Below, in pieces: positions 22,047 to 50,375 of a stretch of 64,000 nucleotides of DNA. Source of the DNA: Chthoniobacteraceae bacterium (GTDB taxonomy: Bacteria; Verrucomicrobiota; Verrucomicrobiia; Chthoniobacterales; Chthoniobacteraceae); assembly GCA_947471505.1 (NCBI GenBank), contig CANIWM010000018.1, positions 1 through 64,000 on the forward strand, written 5' to 3'. A program made the position numbers and the translations under genes. The notes below the pieces were generated by a model. That model made no database searches. It worked only from the letters and a program-made list of their open reading frames with translations, and was not told the DNA's origin. Position 1 is the stretch's first letter, and the number at the start of each line of letters is the position of its first letter.

Positions 22047-22052
22047 AAGAAA

Positions 22053-26980: not shown

Positions 26981-27291
26981 CAGTAGTTGGAAAAAATGCG
27001 GCTTGCGGCCCTTGTGTTTGCCGCCCGTTAGCCCGCCCCATGCCAACAATTGCAGGCGAAGCTATCATCATTTTCATCGCCATCGTGAAAGTGACTCATC
27101 TCCGCTCTCTCATCTCAGTCTGCGGGCCTTCCCGATGGGCGATTCACGCCGATGGGCTCCAAAAGCGCAGGCATATTTCGCGTTTCAGGACATTCGCGGT
27201 GGAGCCTCGGGCGGTGATAAACTGTTGCCTTTTGACCACCTTGTTTGATTTCCAATCTCAGCCTTCCGATTGCACTCGATGGGGAGGCGCA
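26981..27291 (-). other. leader/promoter region of the cysJ-nirA-dmsBC-nasA unit
   Basis: 311 bases without a gene. Read on the minus strand it holds the 17-base TGGCA-N7-GGGCTA element at 27029-27045 and, further upstream, two direct copies of GCCCATCGG about 17 bases apart (27135-27160 region). No convincing open frame or attenuator hairpin was seen. Confidence 0.6.
27029..27045 (-). promoter_or_regulatory. sigma-54-like promoter element before cysJ
   Basis: Minus-strand reading TGGCATGGGGCGGGCTA. The GG and GC pairs are separated by ten bases, as in -24/-12 promoters, and the sequence matches the elements before narK and nrtA. A start site about 12 bases on would give a 5' leader of roughly 39 bases to the cysJ ATG. 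Confidence 0.5.
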
Positions 27292-28929
27292 TCACTTCCT
27301 CGAAAGTAACGAGACAAGAAGCGCGAGTGTGATGCCGAGTAGGAGCCAAAATCCGACGCGATAAAACCGAGGCGAAAGGCGTTCGAGGAGTGGTGCGTTG
27401 GCGCTGTGGAACGGCTCGACGCGCTCGGGGTTCGCGAGATCAAAGCTGAGTTCGCTGAAGTGTTGGTAGCGGCTCTGAGGTTCGATGGAGAGGGCGCGCA
27501 GGAGCACGGCATCCAGCCACAGCGGGAGATTCGGGTTTCGCCGCGAGGGTGGCTTGGGAGGCGAGAATACAGGAGTCTGAAAGCGCTCGATTTCACCGAA
27601 GGGGAATGCGCCGATGAGTGCCTCGTAGAGTGTCACGCCGATGGCGAAAACTTCCGTCCGCTCGCTCACAGGAGCGCCGAGAAACCGCTCGGGAGAGAGG
27701 TAGCTGGCTGTGCCAGCGCGCGAGGTGACGCTGAAGATCTCCGCCGCGCTCCCAAGGTCGATAAGCTTGAACTGCACGCCTGCGTAGTCGGGCAGGACGA
27801 GGATGTTCTCGGGCTTGATGTCGCCGTGGACGAGGTCGAAGCGCAGGAGTCTCTGCGCGGCGGCAGCGAGGAACTGGCCGAGCGCGACGGCCTCATCTAC
27901 GCTGAGGTGGCGGTTGCGCAAGACGGTCTTGAGGCTGGGTGCATCGATGAACTCTTGCACGTAGTAGAGCGCCGTGGCGTGCGGTGGCGTGAAAGCACGG
28001 ACGAAGGCATCGTCGCCGCTCACACGCCCGGCGTTCCACGCTTCGCGGATGAATGCGGTGAGGATGGCCTCGTTCTCCGAAGCCTCGGCAGGCGCAAATT
28101 TCAGCGTCCAGCGAACGCCATCTTTTTCCGCGAGCCACGCGCTCGCGCTGTGCGCAAACGGGCGGACGAGTTCGTAGCCATCCACATTTTCGCCGCGATG
28201 AAGGCCGCTGCGGATGGGCAAATCGCGCCGAGCTTTCAGCCGGAGGTGACCGGGCTCGGCGATGCGGAGGACAACAGCGCTGGCGTCGTCCCGCGTCTCG
28301 GGCGTCGCCTGCTCGACGGCATCGGCGACGAGTGTGCGGGCAGAGCCGCCGCGCTCTAGGGTTGCGAGGATGGCGGCATCATTGAGCGTGGAGGTGATGC
28401 CGTCGGAGCACAGCAGCACGAGGTCGTTCGCAGCCAGATCGCACTCGAAGGAATGCGGCTCCACTTCATCGCAGAGCCCCAGCGCCCGAGTGAGCATAGT
28501 GCGGTCGCCATTTGCCGCAGCATGGTCGAGCGAGAGCTGTGTGAGCGTGTGGCCGCTCAGGAGATACACTCGTGAGTCACCGATGTTGATGCCGTAAAGC
28601 CGCCCGCCTTCGATGACGGCAACGACGAGCGTGGAGACAAGCTCGGGCTGTCCATAGCGAGCCAGCGATTCTTGGAAGAGCGAGTTATTGAGTGTGCGGG
28701 CGAACTCACGCAGCGCCTTCTGTGGCTCCCACGCTGCGGGTCGGGCGCAATAGTTGTCCACCAGCACTCGGACTGCGCGCTCAGCTGCTTCGCGAGCACC
28801 GACAGCCTTGCCCGCACCGTCGGCCAGCGCAGCGATGAACGTCTCGCCCACCTGCCTCACCGCGAAGGCGTCGCTCGATACTCCACCCGTGTCGGCAGGC
28901 TGGCCGAAAGTCGTCGCCTGTATCTTCAT
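27292..28929 (-). CDS. fused PP2C-type phosphatase and serine/threonine protein kinase
   Basis: 545 aa from the ATG at 28929, whose first base is the last base of the narK stop (TGATG). Residues 1-225 are a PP2C phosphatase (ALADGAGKAVGAREAAERAV, GINIGDSRVYLLS, LLCSDGITSTLND, RDDASAVVLRI). Residues about 240-510 are a Hanks-type kinase with Lys in WTLKF, the catalytic loop HGDIKPENIL (HGD in place of HRD), DLG in place of DFG, and an APE-like SYLSPERF. One membrane helix ends the protein (WLLLGITLALLVSLL). Such bifunctional kinase/phosphatases are known beside nitrate transport genes, for example in Pseudomonas; their target is not established. Control of NarK or of nitrate enzymes is an inference. 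Confidence 0.9.
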   Translation of the reverse strand: MKIQATTFGQPADTGGVSSDAFAVRQVGETFIAALADGAGKAVGAREAAERAVRVLVDNYCARPAAWEPQKALREFARTLNNSLFQESLARYGQPELVSTLVVAVIEGGRLYGINIGDSRVYLLSGHTLTQLSLDHAAANGDRTMLTRALGLCDEVEPHSFECDLAANDLVLLCSDGITSTLNDAAILATLERGGSARTLVADAVEQATPETRDDASAVVLRIAEPGHLRLKARRDLPIRSGLHRGENVDGYELVRPFAHSASAWLAEKDGVRWTLKFAPAEASENEAILTAFIREAWNAGRVSGDDAFVRAFTPPHATALYYVQEFIDAPSLKTVLRNRHLSVDEAVALGQFLAAAAQRLLRFDLVHGDIKPENILVLPDYAGVQFKLIDLGSAAEIFSVTSRAGTASYLSPERFLGAPVSERTEVFAIGVTLYEALIGAFPFGEIERFQTPVFSPPKPPSRRNPNLPLWLDAVLLRALSIEPQSRYQHFSELSFDLANPERVEPFHSANAPLLERLSPRFYRVGFWLLLGITLALLVSLLSRK

Positions 28930-30134
28930 CAGATCCGTGCCTGCGCAGCGGCACCCCACGTTGTGCGCCAGCGCGTCTTCACGAGCGTCAGCCCGACGAT
29001 GGCGAGCACACACAGCCCAGCGAAGATCAGGAAGCCCGGGGCGTAGCCTCCCGTATATTGCTTCGCAAGGCCCAGCGAACTCGCAAGCCAGAAGCCGCCC
29101 ACGCCGCCACCGCAGCCGACAAGGCCAGTCATCACACCGAGGTCTTTACCGAACCGTTGAGGCAAGAGTTGAAACACAGACCCATTCGCCATACCGAGCG
29201 CCCCGCTGGCGATGGCAAAAAGCACCGTGTTCATCCAAAAGACGTGAGCCAACGCCGCGACGGTGAGGCATACCGCAGCAATCGCGTAGAAGAAATACAG
29301 CGAGCGGATACCGCCCACGCGGTCTGCCACCGCACCGCCGATCGGCCGCGCCACCGCGCCGAGAAATGTGCAGAGCGCAGCGAAATCGCCCGCTTGCACT
29401 TTCGAGAGCCCATACTCGCCGGTAAAGTAGAGCACATAGCTGCTCGCTAGGCCCACGAAGCCGCCGAAGCTGACCGTGTAGTAAAAGCAAAACCAGTGAG
29501 CATCCTTGTCCTTCAGCAGCGTCACGTAATCACCGAGCGTTTTCTTTTTCACCACCACCGGTGCTTCTTTCGACCATACGATATAGATCAAAAAGACGAT
29601 CACAGCCGGGATGAGCGCCAGACCGAAGACCGCCTGCCAGCCATACGCCGCAGCGACGCGCGGAGCGATCAGCGCATCCAGCACGACGCCCACATTTCCA
29701 GCGCCCGCCAGCCCCATCACCACACCCTGCATGTGAGGAGGATACCAGCGCCCCGCTTGCGGCAGTGCCACCGCGAAGCTCGCCCCTGCAAAGCCGAGCA
29801 GCCCGCCGAGAAACAGCGCCGAGCCAAACGTCGGAAGTCCAGCCAGCCAAGCATAGGCCAGCGCACCCATGACGATAATCTGCGAAGCGATGCCGGTATT
29901 CTTCGCCCCGATGCGGTCCACGAGCATCCCCAGCACGATGCGGAGAAATGCCCCGCTGAGGATCGGCGTCGCGACCATCAGCCCCTTTTGCGCCGCGTCG
30001 AGGTGCAGTGCATCGCCGATGGCTGCGCCAAGTGGGCCGAGAACGGTCCACACCATGAAGGCGAAATCGAAGTAAAGAAATGCGGTGAGCAGCGTGGGCC
30101 AATGCCCGGATGATTTTAGGTCGGAAAGTTTCAC
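28929..30134 (-). CDS. narK: nitrate/nitrite transporter, NarK/NasA family MFS
   Basis: About 401 aa. The GTG at 30134 was preferred because it begins the family-typical VKLSDLKSSGHWPTLL and has AAGG nine bases upstream; a TTG ten codons earlier is the other candidate. Roughly twelve hydrophobic helices follow. Family signatures are FLYFDFAFMVWTVLGPLG in helix 1, the Gly-rich nitrate signature GLAGAGNVGVVLDALIAPR, and GLVGCGGGVGGFWLASSLG in the second half. It would import nitrate, or export nitrite, across the inner membrane. It is co-transcribed with the phosphatase/kinase, and the presence of both MFS and ABC nitrate uptake in one island suggests use at different nitrate levels. Confidence 0.92.
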   Translation of the reverse strand: MKLSDLKSSGHWPTLLTAFLYFDFAFMVWTVLGPLGAAIGDALHLDAAQKGLMVATPILSGAFLRIVLGMLVDRIGAKNTGIASQIIVMGALAYAWLAGLPTFGSALFLGGLLGFAGASFAVALPQAGRWYPPHMQGVVMGLAGAGNVGVVLDALIAPRVAAAYGWQAVFGLALIPAVIVFLIYIVWSKEAPVVVKKKTLGDYVTLLKDKDAHWFCFYYTVSFGGFVGLASSYVLYFTGEYGLSKVQAGDFAALCTFLGAVARPIGGAVADRVGGIRSLYFFYAIAAVCLTVAALAHVFWMNTVLFAIASGALGMANGSVFQLLPQRFGKDLGVMTGLVGCGGGVGGFWLASSLGLAKQYTGGYAPGFLIFAGLCVLAIVGLTLVKTRWRTTWGAAAQARI

Positions 30135-30452
30135 GCTGCGCACCCTTAGCCGCGCCCGTGCCAAGCCGTGAAATCAGGCAGTGAGAGTTTTCGCGCATGG
30201 CGATGAATCCGCCTCATCGGCCCAGCCACTCCGCACTGGCACAGCATCCCATAACTCACTCCCAAAGTGAATACGCACGCTTACAGCGGCAAAATAATCG
30301 TGCGCCGACACTCGGATGTACGACGCCGATGTCCGGTATTAGACCACGCTGGACAATTCCCAACAGCGCCAAAGAGGCGGATGCGGTGACGTGGCCCAAG
30401 ACCAATTGAAAACCACGCCGCTCCGCACCCGCCTGCAATCTGCCACTCCGTT
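30135..30452. other. gap between narK and the outer-membrane channel gene
   Basis: 318 bases. The narK-proximal end holds the sigma-54-like element at 30147-30163. The rest shows no plausible gene, no obvious T-tailed terminator, and no clear enhancer palindrome by eye. Confidence 0.55.
30147..30163 (-). promoter_or_regulatory. sigma-54-like element before narK
   Basis: Minus-strand reading TGGCACGGGCGCGGCTA, followed by AGGG and the GTG start 13 bases away. It has the GG-N10-GC spacing of a -24/-12 promoter and matches the element before nrtA at 16 of 17 positions. If it is a true promoter the transcript would be almost leaderless, so an alternative role cannot be excluded. Confidence 0.5.
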
Positions 30453-31880
30453 TTAGAACGTAATGCTCGTCTGGAAATAGACGAAGTCCGCGTCGTCGCT
30501 CGCCCCGGTATCGGAGAGATAATCACCTGCAAAGAAGTGCGAGTAGCCGCCTTCAAAGCTGAGATTTTTCGACACGGCGTAGGTGAGCGTCGCATCGACC
30601 TCGTAGCCTACGAAGTCGCTCGCAGCGCGAGCCAGCGGCGTTAGCGGACGGACCGTGGCCACGCCATTGGCGCGGTACCACGAGTCGTTCGTATCCGCGA
30701 GCCAGAAGGCGTGAAACTCAGCCTTGGCGGTGAGTTTCTTCGTCGGCGAGCACTTGAAGCTCACTTCGAGGTCTTTCATGTTCTGCCACGAGAAGACGTC
30801 CATCTGGCCGTAGAACTTGTGGTTCGTCGGGAAGAGATTCTGGAACGTCTCTACATCGCCATCTGCGGGATCGCCGTCGCCGCTGCCGTAGTTGAATGCG
30901 ACGCCGAGGCGCGGCATACAACTCGTGTCAAACGTGTAGCCGACTCCGCCGTGCAGCGCGAACGCCGTGAGGTCGAGTCCCTTCACTTCGCCGGTCTGGA
31001 ATGCGCCCTCGAAGTCGTAGTCAAAGCCGACGGGTTTCGGCACTGCGACGACGCCTTTGCCATCGCTGGCTGGCACCGGCGCAAAAGCACCGGGCTTCGA
31101 TTTGATGCGCATGCCGAGCGTGATGAAGTTCGTGCTCGTGACCAGTTGCTCCTCGTGGAGATGCAGCGCGTAGAAGTCCGTCGTCTGCGGGCCGAGCGCC
31201 GTCGTGCTTGCGTAGATACCACTGAAAATCTGCTCTCTGCGTGTTTCATTTCCATTGTATAAATCGCTCATGTTCATGCCCGAGCGACGCGGCACGACGA
31301 CCGACGCAGCGAACGCATCCACCGTGAGAGCACCACTCTTATAGGTCAGTTTCGCAGCGTCGAACGTGCGCCCGAGGTTGTTCCAATCGAAGGCACCGAC
31401 GATACGCTCGTCGCCGTAGCTCAATATCTGACGTCCAAGTTTCACCCCCCACGGCGATTTCGTGTAGTCGGCGAGTTCGATGTAAGCTTGGCGGAGGTCA
31501 AAGGAATCGTCCCCCTCTGCTCCCAGCAGGCCTGGGAAGTCGGCGCGATCGCTCAGCACCTCACGGCTGTCCTGCGCCTGCGCGTAGCAAGTGAGCCACG
31601 AGGAAGGCTTCACCTTTACACCGATGCGAGCACGCTGAAGAAGCCAGTTGTCGTCGTTGATCGTCCTGACGGCGTCGTTGAAATCGAAGTTGTTATCTTT
31701 CAGCTCCCAGCGCAGGCGCTCTTGGATGTCGATGGTGATGAACCCGTCAGCGAATGACAGCGGATTGGCTTCTGGAGCTTTAGTCTTAAGCGCTGGCGCT
31801 GGCGGACCAGCGACTGCGGCGAACGAGATTCCAGCGAACGCAGCGATGGCTGCGAGTGAGTAACGAGTGGTATTTATCAT
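30453..31880 (-). CDS. outer-membrane beta-barrel, alginate-export/porin family
   Basis: 475 aa with a signal peptide (MINTTRYSLAAIAAFAGISFAAVA). The body has alternating amphipathic strands such as WLLQRARIGVKVKPSSWLTCYAQ and FDLRQAYIELAD, the family hallmark WGVKLGRQILSYGDERIVGAFDWNN, and it ends in a typical barrel C-terminal strand (DFVYFQTSITF). It matches the alginate_exp type of anion-selective channel. In this operon, directly after the two nitrate ABC ATPases, it is likely to let nitrate or nitrite cross the outer membrane; that is inferred from position, not from binding residues. Confidence 0.87.
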   Translation of the reverse strand: MINTTRYSLAAIAAFAGISFAAVAGPPAPALKTKAPEANPLSFADGFITIDIQERLRWELKDNNFDFNDAVRTINDDNWLLQRARIGVKVKPSSWLTCYAQAQDSREVLSDRADFPGLLGAEGDDSFDLRQAYIELADYTKSPWGVKLGRQILSYGDERIVGAFDWNNLGRTFDAAKLTYKSGALTVDAFAASVVVPRRSGMNMSDLYNGNETRREQIFSGIYASTTALGPQTTDFYALHLHEEQLVTSTNFITLGMRIKSKPGAFAPVPASDGKGVVAVPKPVGFDYDFEGAFQTGEVKGLDLTAFALHGGVGYTFDTSCMPRLGVAFNYGSGDGDPADGDVETFQNLFPTNHKFYGQMDVFSWQNMKDLEVSFKCSPTKKLTAKAEFHAFWLADTNDSWYRANGVATVRPLTPLARAASDFVGYEVDATLTYAVSKNLSFEGGYSHFFAGDYLSDTGASDDADFVYFQTSITF

Positions 31881-31912
31881 TTATTTTTTGGTTGTTGTTG
31901 TTTTGGGTGATC

Positions 31913-32779
31913 TTACGCCGCTGCACTGGTGGTGCTGGCTGGCTTTGGTAAAGCGATGCGTTTTTTGTGATGCGCGTGGATTTCCAGAAATTCGATGAGG
32001 CACTCGCGGAGCGCGTAATACTCAGGGTGCTCCATCACCGATACGCGATCTCGTGGTCGTGCAAACGGCACTTCCACAATGTCGCCGACTTCGGCTTCCG
32101 GCCCATCCGTCATGCACACGATGCGGTCCGAGAGATACAGGGCTTCATCCACATCGTGCGTGACCATGAGCGCGGTGATGCGCTGACGCCGCCAGAGGTC
32201 GAGCAGCACGCCTTGCAGCTCGTAGCGTGTGAGGGAATCGAGCATCCCGAACGGCTCATCGAGCAGCAGCATCTTCGGCGAGAGCGCAAAGGCTCGCGCG
32301 ATTCCGACACGTTGGCGCATCCCTTGCGAGAGTTCGGCGGGCCGCTTGTCCATCGAGTCCGCGAGGCCCACGACGCTGAGGTAATACTCGGCTATTTGCA
32401 GACGCTCGCCTTTCGTCGCTGTGTAAAAGACCTGCTCCACTCCGAGCATCACATTCTCCCGCGCGGTGAGCCACGGCAGCAGGCTCGGCGATTGAAAGAC
32501 GATGCCGCGATCTGGCCCCGGTCCCGTGACTTCTTTGCCCGCGAGCACCATGCCGCCGCTGGTGGCATCGCTCAGCCCGGCGACCATGGAGAGCACTGTG
32601 CTTTTGCCGCATCCACTGTGGCCGATGAGCGTGACGAACTCGCCCTCGGCGATGTCGAGATTGAAGTCGTTCACGATGACTGCCGGGCCTTTCGGAGTGT
32701 GGTAGGTTTTGTTGAGCTGACTGAGTTCTAGGTAGTTGCGGCGCGTTCTTGGCGGCGGCATGGCGATGATTTCGTTCAT
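31913..32779 (-). CDS. nrtD: nitrate ABC transporter ATP-binding protein (NrtD-like)
   Basis: 288 aa ABC ATPase. Walker A is GHSGCGKST, the Q-loop lies in VFQSPSLLPWLTARENV, the signature is LSQGMRQRVGIARAFALSP, and Walker B is MLLLDEPFGMLD. The signature has Q where most ATPases have G (LSGG), as is common in NrtD-type proteins. The C-terminal part continues past the nucleotide domain (VPFARPRDRVSVMEHPEYY), typical of nitrate/taurine importers. It pairs with the next ATPase upstream to drive the NrtB permease. The start could also be the ATG six codons downstream (MPPPRTRRNYLELS). Confidence 0.9.
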   Translation of the reverse strand: MNEIIAMPPPRTRRNYLELSQLNKTYHTPKGPAVIVNDFNLDIAEGEFVTLIGHSGCGKSTVLSMVAGLSDATSGGMVLAGKEVTGPGPDRGIVFQSPSLLPWLTARENVMLGVEQVFYTATKGERLQIAEYYLSVVGLADSMDKRPAELSQGMRQRVGIARAFALSPKMLLLDEPFGMLDSLTRYELQGVLLDLWRRQRITALMVTHDVDEALYLSDRIVCMTDGPEAEVGDIVEVPFARPRDRVSVMEHPEYYALRECLIEFLEIHAHHKKRIALPKPASTTSAAA

Positions 32780-32797
32780 TGGTCTTGGGTATTAAAG

Positions 32798-33700
32798 TTA
32801 AGCGACTTCCACGGCCTCGAGTTTCTCTTCGCTGCGGCGACGTGCCGTGCGTTTCGCGCCGAAGAGCGTGCGTGGTTCATTGAGGTCTTCTGGGAGTAAA
32901 TCGGGCAGCGTGAGCTTGCGTTTCACCACCGTCTTCTGCCGACCACCGGGGCCGAGCAGATATTCGATTACATCCTTCCGAACGCGCTTGAATGCCGGGT
33001 CGCTGTTCAGCGCCTTGCGCTCGCGTGGCCTTGCAATATCGACAGCCACACTTGGCCCAAGCGTAGCGCCGGGGCCCGCACTCAGCGGGATGATGCGGCC
33101 CGCAGTCATGATGCCCTCGTCCACGTCGTTCGTGATGAGCACGACCGTCCGGCGGTCCTGTTCCCATATACGGACGATCTCATCTTGGAGAGTCGCACGA
33201 GTCAGCGCATCGAGCGCGCCGAGTGGTTCATCCAGCAAGAGAATCTTCGGCTCCGCCGCGAGCGCACGAGCTACACTCACGCGCTGCCGCATCCCGCCCG
33301 AAAGCTCGCGAGGGAGCTTTCCACGAGCGGGAGTCAGATTGACCATCGCCAGATACTTATCCACCTGCGCTCGACGTTGCTCCGCGCTCCATGTGGGGAA
33401 GACTTGGTCCACGGCCAACGCGACATTTTCCGCGACATTCAGCCACGGAAGCAGCGAGTAGTTTTGGAAAACAATCCCGCGTTCCGGGCTGGGCTCCGTG
33501 ATAATTTCACCGCGCAACTTCACCGTCCCGCTGTCGGGCTTGAGAAGACTGGCGATCATCGAAATGAGCGTCGTCTTGCCTGCTCCCGAGTAACCGACGA
33601 TGGCGACAAACTCACCCTCTTCAATGGACAGGTTCACGTCTCTCAACACCTCGGTGCTACCGTACCTCTTACTTACATTGTGTAGTTCAAGAAATGGCAT
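32798..33700 (-). CDS. nrtC: nitrate ABC transporter ATP-binding protein (NrtC-like ATPase only)
   Basis: 300 aa ABC ATPase with Walker A GYSGAGKTT, Q-loop VFQNYSLLPWLNVAENV, signature LSGGMRQRVSVARALAAEP and Walker B ILLLDEPLGALD. It is the second ATPase of the operon and probably forms a heterodimer with the downstream one. Unlike cyanobacterial NrtC it has no C-terminal substrate-binding-like domain; instead it ends after a basic tail (RTARRRSEEKLEAVEVA). Its start lies 3 bases after the nrtB stop, so translation is probably coupled. Confidence 0.9.
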   Translation of the reverse strand: MPFLELHNVSKRYGSTEVLRDVNLSIEEGEFVAIVGYSGAGKTTLISMIASLLKPDSGTVKLRGEIITEPSPERGIVFQNYSLLPWLNVAENVALAVDQVFPTWSAEQRRAQVDKYLAMVNLTPARGKLPRELSGGMRQRVSVARALAAEPKILLLDEPLGALDALTRATLQDEIVRIWEQDRRTVVLITNDVDEGIMTAGRIIPLSAGPGATLGPSVAVDIARPRERKALNSDPAFKRVRKDVIEYLLGPGGRQKTVVKRKLTLPDLLPEDLNEPRTLFGAKRTARRRSEEKLEAVEVA

Positions 33701-33703
33701 GGC

Positions 33704-34576
33704 TCAGATTGTCTTAAAGCGCCGCTCCACCACGCTCATCAGCCGGTCGAGCACATAGCCGACTACGCCGATGGTGAGGATGCAGAGGATGATGTGTGAG
33801 TAGCTGAGCGCGTTGTATTGCTGCCACAGGAAGCCTCCGACGCCGGGTCGTCCGGTGAGCATTTCCGCGGCGACGATGACGAGCCATGCGATTCCCAGTG
33901 ATAGACGGAAACCGGTGAACATATAGGGCAAGGTCGCGGGAAGTAGCACCTTGAAGAGGGTCTTTGACCGCGAGAGCTTCAGCACTTTCGCCACGTTAAG
34001 GAAGTCTTGCGGCACTGCGCGCACTCCCACGGCTGTATTCAAAACGGTGGGCCACATCGAACACACGGCGATGGTGAATATGGCAGCGAGATCGCTCGCC
34101 GTATATTCGCCCATGCCGGGCACGGTGAACTTCGCGGAGAGGAAGAGCACCATCCCCAGCGGCAACCACGCAAGCGGCGAGACTGGTCGAAGAATCTGGA
34201 TAATCGGATCGAACATCTTGGCAAACGCCGGCGAAAGCCCCAGCATGAAGCCGATGGGCGTGCCGATGAGCAGCGCGATAGCGTAGCCTTGCACGACGAG
34301 CTTCAACGATAGCCAAGTGAACCGGAGCATCCCTTGGTCGAGCTCGCCGCGTTTTGCCAGCGGTTGCGTGACGTAGAGTTTGCTCGCCGCCCAAGCCTCC
34401 GTGGGCGATGGGAGGTCCTCAGAGAGCCCCACGCGCACGGTCTTTGTCACTTTGTCGCCGAAGTCATCTATGGAGACTTTCGTGATCGGTTTCCCGGCGA
34501 TGATGGCCCAGATGGCGATGCACAGGGCGATGCCCACAAAGGGCAGAATAATGTAGTCGAACTTGAATGATTTCAT
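33704..34576 (-). CDS. nrtB: nitrate ABC transporter permease
   Basis: 290 aa inner-membrane permease of the nitrate/taurine/bicarbonate family. It has about six hydrophobic helices (YIILPFVGIALCIAIWAIIA first), a periplasmic segment with PSPTEAWAASKLYVTQPL, and the cytoplasmic coupling loop near LKVLLPATLPYMFTGFRLSL that docks on the ATPases. The final part (GVGGFLWQQYNALSYSHIIL) is family-typical. It lies between the substrate-binding gene and the two ATPase genes in the order nrtA-nrtB-nrtC-nrtD. Confidence 0.92.
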   Translation of the reverse strand: MKSFKFDYIILPFVGIALCIAIWAIIAGKPITKVSIDDFGDKVTKTVRVGLSEDLPSPTEAWAASKLYVTQPLAKRGELDQGMLRFTWLSLKLVVQGYAIALLIGTPIGFMLGLSPAFAKMFDPIIQILRPVSPLAWLPLGMVLFLSAKFTVPGMGEYTASDLAAIFTIAVCSMWPTVLNTAVGVRAVPQDFLNVAKVLKLSRSKTLFKVLLPATLPYMFTGFRLSLGIAWLVIVAAEMLTGRPGVGGFLWQQYNALSYSHIILCILTIGVVGYVLDRLMSVVERRFKTI

Positions 34577-34614
34577 GGTCTTGAAATTAAAATGCTGCGC
34601 GGCTGCGCAAGGCT

Positions 34615-35895
34615 TCAGCCCTTGATCGAATTGATCGCGAACGACTTCGCGAACGCTTCGAGGTCTGCCTTCGGGTCAAACTTCACCCCGTCGAAGAATG
34701 TCTCCGGCGTGCTGTCTGCGGCGCGGCCTTTCACGCCGAGTTCTTTCATCGCCTCTTCGTAAAGGTCGCCACGCATCACTTGCTTCGTCACCGCAGCGTA
34801 TTCGGGTGCTCCCTCCGTGAAGCCCCAGCGGCGGAGCTGCGTGAGCCACCACGAGCAGAACTTCGCTTGCGGGTAGTTGGCGTTGCGGTCGCTAAAGGTC
34901 ATGTAGTTCGGGTCGCGGAATTTGCGCCCGTCGCCCATGTCATACTTACCTTGCAGACGCCCGAGGATGATTTCCTCCGGGCAGTTGATGTAAGTCGCCG
35001 CGCTGACGATCTTCGCCTGCTCGGGGCGATTCTCCATTTTATCCAGCCAGACACTCGCCTCGTGCAGAGCCTTCAGCACAGCCTTCACGGTCTTCGGATT
35101 CTTGTCTGCAAACTCTGCGGTGAAGGCACACACCTTCTCCGGGTGGTCCTTCCAAATCGCCTGCGTGCTCACGCTCGTGTAGCCGATGTCGTCGGCAATC
35201 GCCCGCGCATTCCACGGCTCGCCCACGCAGTATCCGTCCATTTTCCCCACCTTCATATTCGCCACCATCTGCGGTGGTGGGACGGTGATGAGCGACACAT
35301 CCGCGCCGCCGCCCATCGCGTCGCCGGGATGGATGCCGCCCGCTGCGAGGTAGTAGCGCATCCACATCGCGTGAGTCCCCGGAGGGAACGTCATGGCAAA
35401 TGTGAGCGGCGTCCCGGCTGCTTTGGCTTCATCCACAAAGGGCTTCAGCGCCTTTGGGTCAGCAGCGACTTTGCCTTTGTATTTGTTGGCGAGAGTGATC
35501 GCTTGGCCGTTGCGATTCATCAGCCACGGCACGACCATCGGCTTCTTTGGCGCTCCTGCGAGGCCGAGAGTGGACGCGATGGGCATCCCGAGCAGCATGT
35601 GCGTCGCCTGGTTGTCGCCATTCGTCAGCGAGTCGCGAATCGCAGCCCAGCTAGCACCTTTAGCGACGGTGGAGTTGATGCCGTGTTTTTTGAAGAGCCC
35701 CTTTTCATGTGCGATGACGATGCTGGAGCAGTCGGTGAGTGCGATGATACCGAACTTCATGTCGGCAGTCTCCGGCGCATCGCTGGCGAAGACTCCGCCG
35801 CTCCAGCTCGCCGGTAAACCGGCAAGGAGCGAGGTGGCTGTGGTGCGACGAATGAATGAGCGGCGAGTGACGTGAGTCTGTGTGTTGTTGTTCAT
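34615..35895 (-). CDS. nrtA: nitrate ABC transporter substrate-binding protein, Tat-exported
   Basis: 426 aa from the ATG at 35895. The N terminus carries a twin-arginine signal (TRRSFIRRTTATSLLAGLPA) rather than a lipobox. The mature part begins MKFGIIALTDCSSIVIAHEKGLF, the usual opening of NrtA/CmpA-type binding proteins, and contains NRNGQAITLANKYKG and KMDGYCVGEPWNARAI, which line the anion site in the family. It binds nitrate or nitrite in the periplasm for the NrtBCD importer. Bicarbonate (CmpA) is the main alternative ligand but the operon context favours nitrate. It is the first gene of the transport operon. Confidence 0.93.
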   Translation of the reverse strand: MNNNTQTHVTRRSFIRRTTATSLLAGLPASWSGGVFASDAPETADMKFGIIALTDCSSIVIAHEKGLFKKHGINSTVAKGASWAAIRDSLTNGDNQATHMLLGMPIASTLGLAGAPKKPMVVPWLMNRNGQAITLANKYKGKVAADPKALKPFVDEAKAAGTPLTFAMTFPPGTHAMWMRYYLAAGGIHPGDAMGGGADVSLITVPPPQMVANMKVGKMDGYCVGEPWNARAIADDIGYTSVSTQAIWKDHPEKVCAFTAEFADKNPKTVKAVLKALHEASVWLDKMENRPEQAKIVSAATYINCPEEIILGRLQGKYDMGDGRKFRDPNYMTFSDRNANYPQAKFCSWWLTQLRRWGFTEGAPEYAAVTKQVMRGDLYEEAMKELGVKGRAADSTPETFFDGVKFDPKADLEAFAKSFAINSIKG

Positions 35896-35910
35896 GTTCG
35901 ACGCACCCCT

Positions 35911-35927
35911 TAGCCGCGCTCGTGCCA
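35911..35927 (-). promoter_or_regulatory. sigma-54-like element before nrtA
   Basis: Minus-strand reading TGGCACGAGCGCGGCTA with GG-N10-GC spacing; TGGCACG is an exact -24 match, while the -12 box is GGCTA instead of TTGCA. AGGGG follows, 16 bases before the nrtA ATG at 35895. It is one of three copies in the nitrate island. Confidence 0.5.
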
Positions 35928-35965
35928 CACGATACAAAGCAGCCGTTCGACTTTTATAGAAAAAT

Positions 35966-43434: not shown

Positions 43435-45717
43435 TTAGCTCTTCGGCACGGCGTTGATCGTGTTGAGGATGCGTCCGGGGATAGTCGCTCCGCTCGCACT
43501 CTTCACGTTAAACTTGATCTCCATCTGGTCCACGGGACGCACGCCTTCCAGTTCGAGAAAGACGCTCTTTTTATCGGGGCTGAGTTTCGCGGATTTCACT
43601 TCGACGCTCTCCATGCCTTTGCCGCCGTCGAGCTTGTATTCGCCGCTGCCGTAGTCGCTGGACCATTTGTAGTTCCACTCTTTCACGGAGTAGTTGCCGG
43701 CGTCGGCGGCGGTGGTGGCGTCGAGTTCGCAGGTGAATGCAACGTTCACTCCGTTTGGCTTTACGGTGAGTTGCGCGGGGAAGGTGACGGGCTTGCCGGT
43801 GTAGCGCACGCGCTGGAGCATCCCGTCTTTCGCGGCGCTGGATTGCCAGCCTTTGAGTCCGCTGAGGTAGAGCTGGCCGTCGGCAGGCGAGAAGCGCCCG
43901 CGCATCGTGCCGCTGTCGAATTTCAGTGGGAATTTATACACGCCGCCTTGCTCCACGCCGCCGACGTTTTCGTGCATGACGCCGTAGAGCGAGCAGGTGC
44001 CGTAGCTCATGTGGAGGAGTGTGCCTTCGGGGAGGCCCCAGTTTTTGCCGACCCACGCTTGGCCGCCGCCGGAGTTGTCCACGTCCTTCGGCATGTAGCA
44101 GATGTGTTTACTGAAATCGGTGGGCTTGTTCTCCATGTGGGAGAGGTCGGCGACGGTGACGCACTCGCCTTGTTTGACGATGTGGACGTAGCACTTCGGC
44201 ACCCATGATCCCTCGTTGTCGCCCGTCGTCACCACGTCGCCGGGGCCGACGCTGATGCCGTTTGGCGCGCGGACGCCTGTGGCGAACACTTCGAGCTTTT
44301 GACCATCGGGAGAAAGTTTGAGGATGCTGCCCGCGTGATCGCTGAAGGGCTGAAAGCCTCGTCCACCGGGGTTCACCGGCCCGCCTTTGCTAAAGAAGAA
44401 GTTCCCTTTGCTGTCAGTCTGGAGATCGAATGCGAACTCATGGAAGCCCGGCGTGGTCTGGATGTCGTTGTTGAAGTTCTCGTAGAAATCGACTTCGCCG
44501 TCGCCGTTCAGATCGTGGAGTCGCGTGATGCCTTCACGTCCGTGGACGTAGATGACATCGTTCACGACTTTCACGCCAAGCGCTTGGAAAAGCCCCGTGG
44601 CGATGCGCTGCCATTTGGCTTCGCCGGTAAAGTCTTTGTTGATGCCGCTCACGATCCAAACGTCGCCGCTCCATGTGCCGACGACGATGCGCCCGTCCTT
44701 CATGAAGTCGAACGCGCCGATGCGCATCCACGCTTTGTAGGGATTGGTGAAGGGCACCTCGATGGTGTCCACGACGTAGGCGTCCTGCTCGCCGGGTTTG
44801 CCTGCGATTTGTTTTGTGGAGACGGTTTCTTTCCAACGCTGCGCGCCGCCCTTGGTGAAAGCGGCGAGGTCTGCGGGCTGGGCGACGCCTTTCACTGCGG
44901 CGATAAGCTTGGCTTCATCGGCGACGGTGCCTTTTGCGTAGGCGATTTTGGCTTTTGCGCCTGCGGTGAAGTTGGCGAATTTCGCGACGACCCGCTGCTC
45001 GACCACGGACATCTCGACGCCCGCGATGACGGTACACTTGTCGCCATCGCGAATCACGGCGACGCCATTCGGCACGGTTGCCGTGCCTGCGCCTTCGCTG
45101 AGGATGTTATCGCTCCCAGCCCCGCCAGTCACCACATTCACAGTGCGGGTGAGGACTGTGATGTCGTTCACTTTCTCCAGAGCAGCCATCTCCAGCAGCG
45201 ACGCCGCGCCGACGGTGTAGGCGACGACGACGTTCTCGCCGCTGACGTAAGTACCTTTGAACTTCACCCAATCCTTTGGCAGCGGGCCAAACGGCACCTT
45301 CGCAGCGCCTTCGCCTTTCGGCAGCGGGCGAGGATCCGTGAAGCTGCCAGCCTTACTCCACGTCGGGCCGGGGTTCGTCTCAAAGAGCACGTTCACCGCT
45401 TTGGCTGGCGACATATTGGGGCCGTGTGCGCCGTCGAAAATCACACCCTTATATGTGACGTATCCGCCCGTCCACCCGCCTGACCACCGGCACAGGTCCG
45501 TATCGAACAGCGCGCCACCTTCTTTGTCGCCAAGCTGGATAGCGATGCCTTTGTTCGTCGTGCAGCCTTTGCCCTTCAACGTGTTCTCGCCCTTCGTATT
45601 GTCGAAAGAAGCGGTGAGGAAACGTCCGTAGTCCATCTCCTCAAACTTCGGAGCGGCGACGGCGGACAGTGAAAGCCCCGCGAGTGCAGCGGCGGCGAGA
45701 CGAGTGTGTAGAATCAT
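43435..45717 (-). CDS. secreted DUF6797-like protein with propeller domain
   Basis: 760 aa with a signal peptide (MILHTRLAAAALAGLSLSAVAA). The first 280 residues (GRFLTASFDNTKGENTLKGK, FDTDLCRWSGGWTGGYV) resemble the DUF6797 domain found in Planctomycetes and Verrucomicrobia. The middle is a sugar-dehydrogenase-like propeller (RIGAFDFMKDGRIVVGTWSG, GVRAPNGISVGPGDVVTTGD), and the end is a beta-rich domain. In contrast to the two large cytochrome fusions of this window, no CxxCH heme motif is present. A role in oxidation or recognition of sugars outside the cytoplasm is suggested but unproven. Confidence 0.82.
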   Translation of the reverse strand: MILHTRLAAAALAGLSLSAVAAPKFEEMDYGRFLTASFDNTKGENTLKGKGCTTNKGIAIQLGDKEGGALFDTDLCRWSGGWTGGYVTYKGVIFDGAHGPNMSPAKAVNVLFETNPGPTWSKAGSFTDPRPLPKGEGAAKVPFGPLPKDWVKFKGTYVSGENVVVAYTVGAASLLEMAALEKVNDITVLTRTVNVVTGGAGSDNILSEGAGTATVPNGVAVIRDGDKCTVIAGVEMSVVEQRVVAKFANFTAGAKAKIAYAKGTVADEAKLIAAVKGVAQPADLAAFTKGGAQRWKETVSTKQIAGKPGEQDAYVVDTIEVPFTNPYKAWMRIGAFDFMKDGRIVVGTWSGDVWIVSGINKDFTGEAKWQRIATGLFQALGVKVVNDVIYVHGREGITRLHDLNGDGEVDFYENFNNDIQTTPGFHEFAFDLQTDSKGNFFFSKGGPVNPGGRGFQPFSDHAGSILKLSPDGQKLEVFATGVRAPNGISVGPGDVVTTGDNEGSWVPKCYVHIVKQGECVTVADLSHMENKPTDFSKHICYMPKDVDNSGGGQAWVGKNWGLPEGTLLHMSYGTCSLYGVMHENVGGVEQGGVYKFPLKFDSGTMRGRFSPADGQLYLSGLKGWQSSAAKDGMLQRVRYTGKPVTFPAQLTVKPNGVNVAFTCELDATTAADAGNYSVKEWNYKWSSDYGSGEYKLDGGKGMESVEVKSAKLSPDKKSVFLELEGVRPVDQMEIKFNVKSASGATIPGRILNTINAVPKS

Positions 45718-45788: not shown

Positions 45789-47462
45789 CTACTTTGTCAG
45801 CGACTTCGCCATCTCCATCTCGGAGGCGGGGACGTGGTATTTGTGGCAGTCGAGACAGTCGGCAAACACTCCGCCCTCCACACGCTGCTTCACTGCGATC
45901 TTCATGTTCGCCTTGCCAAATGTGGGCGCGATCTTGAGCGAGTGATCCATATCCACAGCCGCGTAATCACGCGGACGATGGCACTCCGCGCAGCTCTTCT
46001 GTGCAGGGAGCAAAATGTCCGCCGTATCCTTGCTGCCGCTCGCCTTGCTGTGGCACTCGACGCAGGTGATGTGCGTGTGCGAGCCGTGCTTGAACGGGCC
46101 GCGCGTGAGCCATTGATCGGGGATATTCGGGTCCACAATCGTGGGTGAGGGCTTGCCATCTTTGACCTCATGGCACTTTGCACAGGCGGGCAGCGTCTGG
46201 CCCCGGTCATTGCCGGTGGCCTTGGGCTCTCCTTCAAAAAACACCTTCTGCACCGCACCATCCATCCCGCCGGGCCACCGCGCGAGAATCTCCGCTCCAC
46301 GCTGATTGACAAACGCGCTCAACGCGGCGGCATCCATACCCTTCACGTTTTCCTTCGCCCACTGCGACCATCGGTCGTTCAGCGCATTCAGGAAGTCACG
46401 GATATGCGTCGGGCTCCGATGTGGGAGATAAAAGCCGGGCAATTTCGGGTCGATACCGAGGCTGTGGCACTGCTGGCAGTGCTGCTCGTATTTGATGCGC
46501 TGGACGCCAATTCCATCGCCGTCGGGCTTATGGCAGTCGGTGCAGTCGAGCTTCTTGTTATTCACCATCGGGATGTCGTCCGCAAGGTGACGAGCGTGGT
46601 TAAACTTGATCGCCGCGTTGTCTTTCGCACCTGTCCGCTCGTAGAGGAAAAGTGGATGCCCGTCCTGGAAGCCACGGATGACCTCCGGCTTCACGTTCTT
46701 CGTTGCAGCAGGAATCCATTGAACGAGGTCGCCACCATTCATTCGGACGTTTTGGCTGTGGGCCGCAGCCATTTTGCCGTCGTAATCTGAGCGCTTGAGA
46801 GAGTCGGCCATCTTACCTTCGCTGGAGTGGCATTCGATGCAGACGTTGCTTTTCGGCAGAGCCATCTTTTGCGCGCCGATGTGCTCTTTATGGCAGGCCG
46901 AACACTCGCTGGATGGCACCAAGTTCAGCTCCTTCGTCGTCTCCCGGAACATGATGGCCTTCCCGCCGGGCTGATGGAGGGCCATGCCGTCGTGGCATTT
47001 CAGGCAGGCGTTATCAATATTGCTGAGCTTCACAGAAGCGAGCGCCGTGTTCACTGCCACTGAGAGCTTTTCTCCGTCCGTAAGCGTATCCTTTACGTCG
47101 CCGAGTCGTTTCATCGCATCACCGCCCGCGGCTTTCAGTCGGTCCGTGAGAGGCGTCTTTTTATCGAGGAGCATCGCCTTTGTTTTCTCCAGCGGAAGCA
47201 TGGAAAATACATCCGTCGTCGCTCCCTCATGGCAAATCTCACATTGCTCAGTAAAGCGCGCGTGATTTGCTGAAATCGGCCCCGTATTAAAAAACTCGTT
47301 CGATCCTCCCAAGTGCTTATAGCCGAGCGCCCAAACCAAACCGCCGACGACGGCAAGGATACTCAACCACTTGCGCCAGCGGCGGAGGTAGTGACCCTCT
47401 TTGTAGTAGGTCAGGTTGTCCTTATACTTTTGCGCGATTTGCTTTTGCGTGTTTTCGGGCAT
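45789..47462 (-). CDS. membrane-anchored decaheme c-type cytochrome
   Basis: 557 aa from the ATG at 47462 (a TTG two codons upstream is possible). A single hydrophobic helix (WLSILAVVGGLVWALGY) anchors it, with the body in the periplasm. Ten CxxCH motifs are present in order: CEICH, CLKCH, CSACH, CIECH, CTDCH, CQQCH, CAKCH, CVECH, CAECH, CLDCH. Additional His residues (for example KFNHARHLADD and FKHGSHTH) may serve as distal ligands. It should carry electrons across the periplasm. It is the third gene of a tight unit with the cyclic-nucleotide/ferredoxin protein and a cytochrome b-like protein, seven bases after the latter. It is not NrfA or an octaheme reductase by motif pattern (no CxxCK). 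Confidence 0.9.
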   Translation of the reverse strand: MPENTQKQIAQKYKDNLTYYKEGHYLRRWRKWLSILAVVGGLVWALGYKHLGGSNEFFNTGPISANHARFTEQCEICHEGATTDVFSMLPLEKTKAMLLDKKTPLTDRLKAAGGDAMKRLGDVKDTLTDGEKLSVAVNTALASVKLSNIDNACLKCHDGMALHQPGGKAIMFRETTKELNLVPSSECSACHKEHIGAQKMALPKSNVCIECHSSEGKMADSLKRSDYDGKMAAAHSQNVRMNGGDLVQWIPAATKNVKPEVIRGFQDGHPLFLYERTGAKDNAAIKFNHARHLADDIPMVNNKKLDCTDCHKPDGDGIGVQRIKYEQHCQQCHSLGIDPKLPGFYLPHRSPTHIRDFLNALNDRWSQWAKENVKGMDAAALSAFVNQRGAEILARWPGGMDGAVQKVFFEGEPKATGNDRGQTLPACAKCHEVKDGKPSPTIVDPNIPDQWLTRGPFKHGSHTHITCVECHSKASGSKDTADILLPAQKSCAECHRPRDYAAVDMDHSLKIAPTFGKANMKIAVKQRVEGGVFADCLDCHKYHVPASEMEMAKSLTK

Positions 47463-47469
47463 GGCCAAA

Positions 47470-48411
47470 TCAAGGGTTCACGATGATGAGCCGCAGTTCC
47501 ACTACTGCGTGCCAGAGCGTGAGGATGATCAAAAGGAGGGAAATCGGGACGTGGATGAGGAGCCAGCCGTGGAGCCAGTGTTGTAGCTTCGCTTGGAGGT
47601 CCGTCCGGCGGCGCTCATCGCAGCACGCTTGGAGTTCTTCGACGCGGGGCGTCCAATTTGGCGCGACATTCAGCTTCAAATGCCGGAACGCCTCATCGCT
47701 GTTCCGGATCGCACTGAGTTGATGGTTGTCGCCTCGCCGTAGCCGCAGATAAGGCAAGGCGTCTTCCTCCAAAAACTCACGAATCGCCTCTGCACTCTGG
47801 ATGTCCGCGGGGGTGAGCGGCACGGCCTTCGGGTCCGGCTTCGCATCAGGCGCGGGCGCGACAGGTGTGCAATCCTTCAATAGAGTCTCAGCCACTGACA
47901 GCGCACGTTTGCGGATGTGGGGAATCTGCTCAAATACCACTTCGCGAGGCAGTCGCTCCTTCAGGAGAACAGGGATAACCTGCTGCATCGCGATACCAAA
48001 AAAGCCCGTTCCCATCACGATGAAATACAGCCACATCATCACGGAGGAATGGGAACTCTTCATCGCGAATCCGGAGTGCATCGCCACGAGCGGGATGGTG
48101 AAAATCGTGAGCCAGACGTGCGCTTTAAGCCAAATCTCCACGCGGCCAATTCTCCAAAGGCGTTTCTTTTTACGCACCCCGAGAGCCGCGGCGAATAGGA
48201 AGATCAGAAAGGCGAGTGTGCCAAAGAGGATGCCTACGCGGGTTCCGCCGTAGGTGTTCTTTTGTCCCTCAGTGTCTTTCAGGATTCCCGGTAGCTCGAA
48301 GGCGAAAGGCAGATGGCTCGGGTGGAACCTTGCCATGTAGAGAAGCACCGTCACCGCTGTCGCGAGAAGCGTTACAATGAACCACGGGAGATGAGAACGG
48401 TTGATGACCAT
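47470..48411 (-). CDS. cytochrome b-like membrane protein
   Basis: 313 aa from the ATG at 48411; the open frame upstream has no membrane or signal character. About five helices are seen (11-27, 58-78, 95-115, 125-147 and 279-305). Candidate heme ligands are H98 and H112 in helix 3 (AHVWLTIFTIPLVAMHSGF) and H281, H287 and H301 in the last helix region (WLHGWLLIHVPISLL, LTLWHAVVE). Helices 4 and 5 are separated by a soluble loop of about 130 residues. The gene begins two bases after the ferredoxin gene and is followed by the decaheme gene, so it probably moves electrons through the membrane between them. The direction is unknown. Confidence 0.8.
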   Translation of the reverse strand: MVINRSHLPWFIVTLLATAVTVLLYMARFHPSHLPFAFELPGILKDTEGQKNTYGGTRVGILFGTLAFLIFLFAAALGVRKKKRLWRIGRVEIWLKAHVWLTIFTIPLVAMHSGFAMKSSHSSVMMWLYFIVMGTGFFGIAMQQVIPVLLKERLPREVVFEQIPHIRKRALSVAETLLKDCTPVAPAPDAKPDPKAVPLTPADIQSAEAIREFLEEDALPYLRLRRGDNHQLSAIRNSDEAFRHLKLNVAPNWTPRVEELQACCDERRRTDLQAKLQHWLHGWLLIHVPISLLLIILTLWHAVVELRLIIVNP

Positions 48412-48413
48412 AG

Positions 48414-50375
48414 TTAGTGCGTCGTTCTGGATTTTTTCTGGAAGCTCCAGCCTTTGCCTTGTTTCCCTGATGCAAAGAATTTCGCGGGGTCCACTCGCTT
48501 GGCCGCGTCGTGCGGACACGCATAGACACAGCTCGGAACGCTGAGGTCTGTGCAAAGGTCACAGGTCGTCGCTTTCTGCACGGTGACTTTCTTTTTCACC
48601 ATCTTCTTGGGCGGCTCGGCTTTCTTGGGCTCTTCCTTTTTGGCAGGTGCTGGGGCTGGTTTCGCCACGGTTTCTGCGGGTTTCGCAGGGGCGGGGGCTG
48701 GGTCCGCAGTCTTCGCCTCTACGGGAGCTTTCGCGGGCTCGGCGACAACGGGTTTTACAACAGTCTCGGAAGGCACGGCGGCGGACTTGTTGGCTTCGGG
48801 AGCTGGTTCCGCAGTCTTCGCTTCTGTTGGAGCTTTCGCTGGTTCGGCTGGCGCTGCTGCGACGGGCTTTACTTCGGCGGGAGCTGGCGCTGGTTTTGCA
48901 GGCGGCGGAGTCGCAGGTTTCGCTGCGGCTGCGGGAGCGGCGGCGGCTGGCTTTGCTGCTTCGGCGGCGACTTCTTTGATTACATCAAAGGAGTGCATGT
49001 TGATGTTCCCGTATGGGCAAAGCTCGGCGCATTTTCCGCAGCCGATACACCAGTCTTCGATGATGATTTCGAGCGACTCTTTGCGCAGGATACTGCCGAC
49101 CGGACACTGCGTCATGCAGAGCGGGTCGCGGCAGGAGCGGCAGGCTGTCGGAACCATGAAATGATCGTAGCGCAGTCCGTCGCGGATGAGGCGCGTCACG
49201 CCGTCGTGCGCGTCGGCACAAGCGTTCACGCAAGCGTCGCAGCGCGTGCAGTGGTCGAGGTCAATGAGAAGGAGGTTTTGCGCTTCGTAGAGCCCTTGGT
49301 TGAGGAAATCATCGAGCTGCAACCCTGGTGGCGGTTTCCGCTCTTCGTCCGCTTTGATGCGCGCCTCGGCAACCTTGGTCAGCGATTCGAGGACGACGGG
49401 AAACTTCTCCAGCATCACCTTGAAGTCATCCCCATTGATCTTCACGAGGTCCACCGCGTCGAGAGCGGTGCAAGTCGCATTGCGCGGCTGGTTCTTTAAT
49501 AGACCAATCTCTCCGAAAAACTCCCCGCGCTTTAGATAAGTGCGCACCATCTCGCCGCCGGGCATCGCCTGTGACACTCGGACCAACCCGCTGCGGATGA
49601 GATAAAACGCATCCGCCGCGTCGCCTTGTTTACAAACGACCTGGCCTTTCCCGCAGCTCACCAACTCCGCGCGGTCGCGCAGATAGCCGAGAAACTCATC
49701 CCCCACCGTCGCGAACAGCGGGACGGTGCTAAGATGGTTCGACAGCGAGCGAGCGCGATACTTCTCGTCCATCGCCTTCTTGAAGCTCGTGCCTTTGAAA
49801 GTGGGCAGCTTCACCTTTGTGCTGGCCTTCGTCTCGGCGTCCACATCACGCGTGCCGAGCAGCATGTCGAGGATGACACGCAGCGTCTCGATCATCACGC
49901 AATCTGTCTTAGCCCTCACGGTCGCGGAACGTGGCTGGAAAGTGCGGCACGTCATCTCCCCGAACAGGTCTCCCGCGCCGAGCGTCGCCAGCGGCTTCGT
50001 CTTCGGCAAGTCCACATCCGCGTCGATAGCGATGAAGCCGTTCTGTTCATTCCCCGCACTCGAACCTCCACCGAAAAGCCCCGTAATCTTTTTGAAGAAT
50101 CCGAAAACGCCTTTTCCATGCCGCTGGCTCTGGACCTTGGCGAGCGGGTTTTCGATGTAAATATCTACGTCCCCCTCGACGATATAAAAAGCCGTTGATC
50201 CAAAGTCACCCTCGCGGCAGACGATGTCGCCCTCCGAGAAGCGCCGCAGCACCGCTGCGCCGAGTGCGTAATTCTTGAGCAAGCCCATGGATATTTCGCC
50301 AAGGGCAGGCAGATGCTTGAGCATCTCTTCGATAGTGAGAGGTTCACCAGTTGTGAGTTTTTCCGGCGCTTCCAT
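48414..50375 (-). CDS. tandem cyclic-nucleotide-binding and split polyferredoxin protein
   Basis: 653 aa, no signal peptide, likely cytoplasmic. Two cNMP-binding folds come first: residues about 33-175 with cassette GDLFGEMTCRTFQPRSATV, interrupted by a Gly-rich insert near 80-128, and about 215-335 with GEFFGEIGLLKNQPRNATC. Then a DmsB-like ferredoxin: C376/379/382/386, C412/415/420/424, C443/446/449/453 and C605/608/616/620, enough for four [4Fe-4S] clusters. Between the third and fourth groups lies an Ala/Pro/Lys linker of about 130 residues with near-duplicated segments (AEPAKAP-EAKTA-PAP). The design suggests electron transfer controlled by a cyclic nucleotide or similar ligand. It is the first gene of the redox unit with the cytochrome b-like and decaheme proteins. 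Confidence 0.88.
   Translation of the reverse strand: MEAPEKLTTGEPLTIEEMLKHLPALGEISMGLLKNYALGAAVLRRFSEGDIVCREGDFGSTAFYIVEGDVDIYIENPLAKVQSQRHGKGVFGFFKKITGLFGGGSSAGNEQNGFIAIDADVDLPKTKPLATLGAGDLFGEMTCRTFQPRSATVRAKTDCVMIETLRVILDMLLGTRDVDAETKASTKVKLPTFKGTSFKKAMDEKYRARSLSNHLSTVPLFATVGDEFLGYLRDRAELVSCGKGQVVCKQGDAADAFYLIRSGLVRVSQAMPGGEMVRTYLKRGEFFGEIGLLKNQPRNATCTALDAVDLVKINGDDFKVMLEKFPVVLESLTKVAEARIKADEERKPPPGLQLDDFLNQGLYEAQNLLLIDLDHCTRCDACVNACADAHDGVTRLIRDGLRYDHFMVPTACRSCRDPLCMTQCPVGSILRKESLEIIIEDWCIGCGKCAELCPYGNINMHSFDVIKEVAAEAAKPAAAAPAAAAKPATPPPAKPAPAPAEVKPVAAAPAEPAKAPTEAKTAEPAPEANKSAAVPSETVVKPVVAEPAKAPVEAKTADPAPAPAKPAETVAKPAPAPAKKEEPKKAEPPKKMVKKKVTVQKATTCDLCTDLSVPSCVYACPHDAAKRVDPAKFFASGKQGKGWSFQKKSRTTH

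Follow-up and report, generated by a model that had tools for sequence, protein, structure and literature searches.

What function is served by three tightly packed redox genes in a 64,000-nucleotide stretch of DNA (the whole of which we call the window) from contig CANIWM010000018.1 of a Chthoniobacteraceae bacterium? The genes follow one another on the minus strand, as do all features of them given below, and are separated by gaps of 2 nucleotides (gene 1 to gene 2) and 7 nucleotides (gene 2 to gene 3); on open reading frames, coordinates and gaps the original prediction for this locus was correct. The 653-residue product of gene 1 (P0001, 48414..50375) is a predicted cytoplasmic protein with tandem cyclic nucleotide-binding domains (CNBDs) and four [4Fe-4S] clusters. 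Gene 2 (P0002, 47470..48411, with its ATG at 48411) specifies a five-helix, diheme-cytochrome-b-like membrane protein of 313 residues that belongs to an unnamed family, and gene 3 (P0003, 45789..47462, with its ATG at 47462 and an alternative TTG start at 47468) a decaheme c-type cytochrome of 557 residues. Genes 1 and 2 are each single copy in the genome. We propose, with a probability of roughly 0.6, that the trio is the inner-membrane core of a trans-envelope conduit that carries electrons outward and responds to cyclic nucleotides.

Do other genomes keep the three genes together? A survey of 289 Verrucomicrobiota genomes with gene 2 yielded 18 matches, and 14 genomes carry the module; homologues of gene 1 and of the decaheme gene adjoin gene 2 at most of the 18, both within the taxonomic order of the window and as far afield as other classes. 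(Matches in genomes G059 and G156 were discarded, being located in RND-efflux-like proteins.) In a wider scan, which covered one genome per bacterial or archaeal species with an alignment of gene 2 as the query, 80 loci were recovered, 67 of them on contigs with sufficient flanking DNA. These contigs were selected on gene 2 alone, and hence the neighboring genes provide an independent test; the co-occurrence of gene 1 was counted from these loci and not from the survey of 289 genomes. Gene 1 lies immediately upstream of gene 2 in 55 of the 67 contigs, and a cytochrome with nine or ten hemes lies immediately downstream in 61 (exactly ten CxxCH motifs in 58). Both neighbors adjoin gene 2 in 49/67, and 55/67 combine an adjacent decaheme gene with a gene 1 homologue anywhere in the locus. 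The carriers are Verrucomicrobiota, Planctomycetota, Acidobacteriota and Candidatus Rokuibacteriota, with single records from Nitrospinota, Alphaproteobacteria, Wallbacteria and Riflebacteria; these are the names given in the database records, and some of the binned genomes are probably misnamed. The nearest relative (locus L126) has three proteins that are 88–95% identical to those of the window. Thus, the expectation that the trio would stay together was borne out across several phyla, and the gene set, its order and its co-occurrence are established, as are the conserved ligands described next.

How might electrons cross the membrane? The structural model of gene 2 (predicted local distance difference test score, pLDDT, 94.3) places membrane helices at residues 5–29, 58–82, 91–113 and 120–153 and at the C-terminal end of residues 251–311, in agreement with the five helices and intramembrane histidine pairs that had been proposed. 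The spacing HX13H occurs twice, once in transmembrane helix 3 (TM3; H98 and H112, 48076..48120) and once in TM5 (H287 and H301, 47509..47553), and all four histidines are invariant in 64 relatives. A positive-inside charge pattern assigns the N terminus and the long loop between TM4 and TM5 to the cytoplasm. With this distribution of charge, one histidine per helix pair would lie near each membrane face, which points to a ladder of two hemes. Gene 2 matched no Pfam or NCBIfam family, a search of a plasmid collection gave no match, and searches of PDB sequences, with gene 2 alone and with a profile of the 64 sequences, returned spurious matches only and no profile match below 0.05. Judged by sequence, gene 2 appears to represent a new membrane cytochrome family that has no Pfam entry.

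Gene 3 has exactly ten CxxCH motifs (at residues 74, 153, 187, 208, 307, 329, 427, 467, 491 and 536), as predicted, while the membrane anchor that had been assigned to it is likely rather than certain: the single N-terminal hydrophobic stretch (residues ~29–46) falls below the Kyte–Doolittle cut-off used. The protein is probably anchored in the membrane and periplasmic. Its ten heme histidines are invariant (67/67 homologues), as are eight distal histidines (67, 194, 269, 289, 292, 459, 462 and 543, each in 67/67), and two more are mostly kept (H348 in 63/67 and H163 in 52/67). This complement would furnish ten bis-histidine hemes, as befits a wire and not an enzyme. Matches to multiheme families are weak: the DmsE/MtrA decaheme model TIGR03508 scores 36.5 bits and does not reach its cut-off of 192.2, and the NapC/CymA domain Cytochrom_NNT (PF03264) gave no match in a Pfam search.

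The cytoplasmic end of the putative pathway is gene 1, which was correctly predicted to contain two cyclic-nucleotide-type domains and four cysteine groups. Pfam identifies two cNMP_binding domains (PF00027, E=3e-37; 126.8 bits against a cut-off of 27.5) as well as Fer4 domains. CNBD-A (residues ~40–172, 49860..50258) has an insert at ~76–124 and the phosphate-binding cassette FGEMTCRTFQPRSAT (residues 138–152), and CNBD-B (residues ~213–345, 49341..49739) has the cassette FGEIGLLKNQPRNAT (residues 287–301). Cysteine groups I–III (376/379/382/386, 412/415/420/424 and 443/446/449/453; 49014..49250) are arranged in a DmsB/HydN-like order, and their 12 cysteines are invariant in 69/69 sequences. 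They are separated from group IV (605/608/616/620; 48513..48563) by a linker rich in alanine, proline and lysine (residues ~470–600, 48576..48968) that is predicted to be disordered (pLDDT ~40–50), and all 16 cysteines are near-invariant in the 69 sequences. The model has good confidence for the CNBDs and modest confidence for the iron-sulfur part; HydN, FDH3_beta and DmsB appear as weak family matches, and the top Foldseek matches are the tandem CNBDs of PKA-R and PKG (E 1e-17).

Both cassettes of the window's gene 1 hold the glutamate and the arginine. Among relatives covering the region, E140 of CNBD-A is found in 66/66 and R149 in 65/66, and in CNBD-B E289 is found in 53/68 and R298 in 51/68. 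The outcome that would have refuted the original prediction, cassettes devoid of a usable pocket, did not arise: CNBD-A retains the ribose-contacting glutamate and the phosphate-contacting arginine and both domains model well, resembling the regulatory subunit of PKA. Retention of these residues in CNBD-A makes ligand control, and specifically control of gene 1 by a cyclic nucleotide, plausible. At least five class III cyclases are encoded in the genome of the window.

Some relatives carry additional domains. In two Bryobacterales loci (L101:5632-7962 and L088:5731-8004), the gene 1 product has a C-terminal FHA domain behind the [4Fe-4S] groups and an insert of ~100 residues within the CNBD-B cassette region. 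At L048:2713-13603, FHA domains are found in an NqrF-like reductase, in the CNBD-iron-sulfur protein and in a 704-residue neighbor, an arrangement that suggests phosphorylation control in addition. Further signaling inputs thus seem to have been grafted onto the module. As to cyclases, a class III cyclase-TPR gene lies ~15 nucleotides downstream of an LVIVD-repeat decaheme gene (introduced below) at L142:1738-4173 (genome G013), and cyclase open reading frames are also present at L067 and L107.

Where would the electrons come from? An NAD(P)H module is present inside the locus in 39 of 79 tree rows, 26 of them of the NuoEF type and 13 of the NqrF/FNR type; locus L076 of Granulicella aggregans and locus L055 of strain IMCC26134 are examples of loci with a NuoEF or NqrF module. 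The NqrF-like reductase (FAD_binding_6, NAD_binding_1 and Fer2) is found in Opitutales-like, Kiritimatiellae, Pirellulaceae and alphaproteobacterial loci, and a NuoE-NuoF fusion in Acidobacteriota, Rokubacteria and some Chthoniobacter-like loci. At the NuoEF-type loci gene 1 itself bears a NuoG-type 2Fe-2S/4Fe-4S N terminus, which would give NADH electrons a single-polypeptide route into the sensor protein. On the strength of these neighbors, NAD(P)H is the probable general donor and electron flow is likely to run from the cytoplasm to the periplasm; the electron path that had been proposed between the two compartments is thereby strengthened and gains a likely direction. The clade of the window has the bare three-gene core. 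In another genome of the same order (G258), NuoEF and a fused sensor gene are located at a second locus, so that splitting of the gene set does occur.

Other redox arrangements were observed at related loci. In two distant genomes, G212 (L041:7821-9764) and G195 (L045:7833-9776), a NirB-like FAD region and a BFD [2Fe-2S] domain are fused to a cytochrome b that is distantly like gene 2, with a decaheme gene following it and nitrate-type ABC transporter genes flanking; the fusion is a possible one-protein version of the conduit's input. A rokubacterial locus (L068:10558-12162) encodes, just downstream of the decaheme, an NDH-2 type dehydrogenase with a C-terminal CNBD of its own.

And where would they go? 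Opitutales-like operons continue, after the trio, with genes for a barrel-like protein and for a decaheme cytochrome with LVIVD beta-propeller repeats, and frequently have a divergent gene for a c554-like cytochrome beside them. The barrel-like protein (~700–800 residues) has a signal-peptide-like start and, in 20/20 sequences, a C-terminal aromatic (Phe/Tyr) beta-signal; the LVIVD decaheme weakly matches Geobacter ExtM (72.8 bits against a cut-off of 800). The genome of the window encodes counterparts at other sites: an LVIVD decaheme (60–65% identity, contig C9), a barrel-like protein (59%, C41) and a c554-like cytochrome (37%, C59). The LVIVD decaheme and the barrel-like protein occur in the same nine of the 289 Verrucomicrobiota genomes, and all nine have the module (Fisher p=6e-14, or 4e-10 when counted by genus, both values being uncorrected for phylogeny). 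One family has the pair inside the operon, whereas in the window's order it lies distant from the trio, and hence the co-occurrence reflects more than physical linkage alone.

From these observations we infer that the three proteins form a complex, and we picture its direction, acceptor and gating as follows. Cytoplasmic NAD(P)H, to judge from the gene content of many relatives, or in the window's own clade perhaps ferredoxin or a separately encoded dehydrogenase, would supply electrons to the four [4Fe-4S] clusters of gene 1, from which they would pass to two stacked b hemes in gene 2, held by H98 and H287 near the cytoplasm and by H112 and H301 near the periplasm. They would continue into the bis-histidine decaheme wire of gene 3 and then, probably through soluble c-type cytochromes, to the putative outer-membrane beta-barrel and the LVIVD decaheme. 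The surface decaheme would deliver them to an extracellular acceptor, for which Fe(III), Mn(IV) and humics are guesses. Cyclic AMP or cyclic GMP, bound by the tandem CNBDs and chiefly by CNBD-A, would switch the entry of electrons on or off. Outward flow would dissipate the membrane potential, and so a valve would be sensible, with the CNBDs as natural candidates.

Several results weigh against this scheme. No NAD(P)H module adjoins the trio of the window, and a search of its genome for a dedicated NADH module gave a sole NuoEF match, which belongs to an ordinary complex I. A Foldseek comparison of the gene 2 model with the PDB gave no match under E 0.001, and because gene 2 has no structural relative, heme b binding is argued from the conserved histidines alone. 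The glutamate and arginine of CNBD-B are lost in the Opitutales-like clade. Cyclase genes lie near three or four loci, about the level expected by chance for a few cyclases per genome, and we therefore do not use the cyclase link as evidence. At the outer membrane, the placement of the barrel is drawn from its beta-signal and signal-like start and not from a model, and five module-bearing genomes are without the outer pair. The lack of an NADH module in the window's clade also fits an alternative, unlikely in our judgment, in which menaquinone is the redox partner of gene 2. In that case the trio would be a quinol-oxidizing or quinone-reducing complex like CbcL/MtrH or of the Psr/Nrf type, and the iron-sulfur protein would feed or drain the quinone instead of being the sole input. 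Subunits with four [4Fe-4S] clusters normally partner membrane proteins of the quinone-reactive NrfD or DmsC type. A cytochrome b combined with a multiheme cytochrome c is the theme of CbcL, MtoC and MtrH (PMC6295460, PMC4245776). Two stacked b hemes, however, would make a through-membrane path that needs no quinone. Many relatives have NADH modules within the locus or as fusions, and gene 2 does not resemble NrfD, DmsC or Ni_hydr_CYTB (PF01292; best E 0.83, in 1/11 relatives).

Flow in the opposite direction, with Fe(II) or another donor in the periplasm or outside the cell reducing the decaheme and electrons moving inward to NAD+ or ferredoxin, would be in keeping with the similar parts found in iron oxidizers (Mto/Pio) and with NADH modules being reversible in principle. 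It is nonetheless very unlikely, since the passage from c hemes to NAD+ would be uphill against an inside-negative potential with no energy-coupling subunit, and many carriers belong to groups generally held to be heterotrophic. Somewhat doubtful, and compatible with the remainder of the explanation we favor, is the idea that the CNBDs are a structural or dimerization platform and that the conduit operates without cyclic-nucleotide control. CNBD folds may be ligand-free, CNBD-B is degenerate in the Opitutales-like clade, and cyclase neighbors are not enriched. Against this, the residues of the CNBD-A cassette are conserved almost without exception in several phyla, and a simple platform would have no use for such conservation. 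That the trio consists of three unrelated redox genes side by side by chance is already refuted by the conservation of their order over phyla and by their nearly abutting arrangement. Returning to the outward conduit, we raise, tentatively, the wider possibility that it exemplifies an undescribed class present in several phyla: a cyclic-nucleotide-gated route from NAD(P)H to the cell surface that bypasses quinone, with interchangeable NADH-oxidizing heads, a new family of diheme cytochrome b and an LVIVD/beta-barrel terminal at the surface. In such an inner-membrane machine, electron export would be switched by a second messenger itself.

How does the trio relate to known systems? Ferric reductases and NADPH oxidases have two pairs of histidines 14 residues apart and move NAD(P)H-derived electrons through the membrane. 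Gene 2 resembles their bis-heme domain in having two such pairs on two helices, yet has no sequence or fold match to it (Pfam, Foldseek, PDB profile), and the trio has iron-sulfur clusters as its input instead of a fused FAD domain and a decaheme as its output. Like CbcL, MtoC and MtrH (Geobacter extracellular electron transfer and iron oxidizers), it joins an inner-membrane cytochrome b to a periplasmic multiheme cytochrome, but it does so with separate genes rather than one polypeptide, its gene 2 is not of the PF01292 type, and CbcL has no cytoplasmic CNBD-bearing subunit with four [4Fe-4S] clusters. The order of cysteine groups I–IV and the weak family matches recall the DmsB/NrfC/PsrB-type subunits (NrfABCD, DsrMKJOP, Qrc), whereas the trio lacks a catalytic molybdenum or other subunit and an NrfD/DmsC-type partner and has two CNBDs and a diheme-b-like partner instead. 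Its probable outer half, a beta-barrel plus a multiheme cytochrome, is like the Geobacter Ext/Pcc porin-cytochrome conduits; unlike systems based on CymA or ImcH, the module has no inner-membrane subunit of that type, and its input would be NAD(P)H and not quinol. The input enzymes of relatives come from the NuoEF/HoxFU and NqrF diaphorase families, with the usual partner (complex I, hydrogenase or Nqr) replaced by the CNBD-[4Fe-4S]-cytochrome b-decaheme core. In its proposed mode of action the trio resembles the transmembrane conduits of the CbcL and Dsr/Nrf types, yet it lacks the features that define either. No named complex of this composition had been recognized, and a literature search (CNBD with multiheme, decaheme with cytochrome b), to which most subscription journals and preprints were outside scope, likewise found no description of it.

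Elsewhere in the window, a secreted DUF6797 protein is encoded at 43435-45717, 71 nucleotides downstream of gene 3. In L126 the trio is likewise followed by a gene of equal length, which the other loci seen do not have at this place, and the DUF6797 gene is probably outside the module. A large nitrate assimilation/sulfite-reductase-like cluster (19845-35937) contains genes for a molybdopterin oxidoreductase, a DmsB-DmsC-like fusion protein, a sulfite/nitrite reductase, a flavoprotein, a NarK-like transporter and a nitrate ABC transporter, with a PP2C-phosphatase/protein-kinase fusion at 27292-29013 inside it.

In sum, the trio probably acts as a wire for electron export that is under signal control and had gone undescribed. 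If so, Verrucomicrobiota, Acidobacteriota, Planctomycetota and Rokubacteria, which are abundant but have few described conduits, would possess a widespread electron-export system, and a second messenger would act directly on an electron-transfer subunit and not on transcription. The finding exposes a membrane cytochrome family absent from Pfam, and the LVIVD decaheme and its barrel partner offer marker genes for surface electron transfer in genomes. For such organisms, a regulated outlet for NADH electrons could be of help when redox conditions fluctuate.

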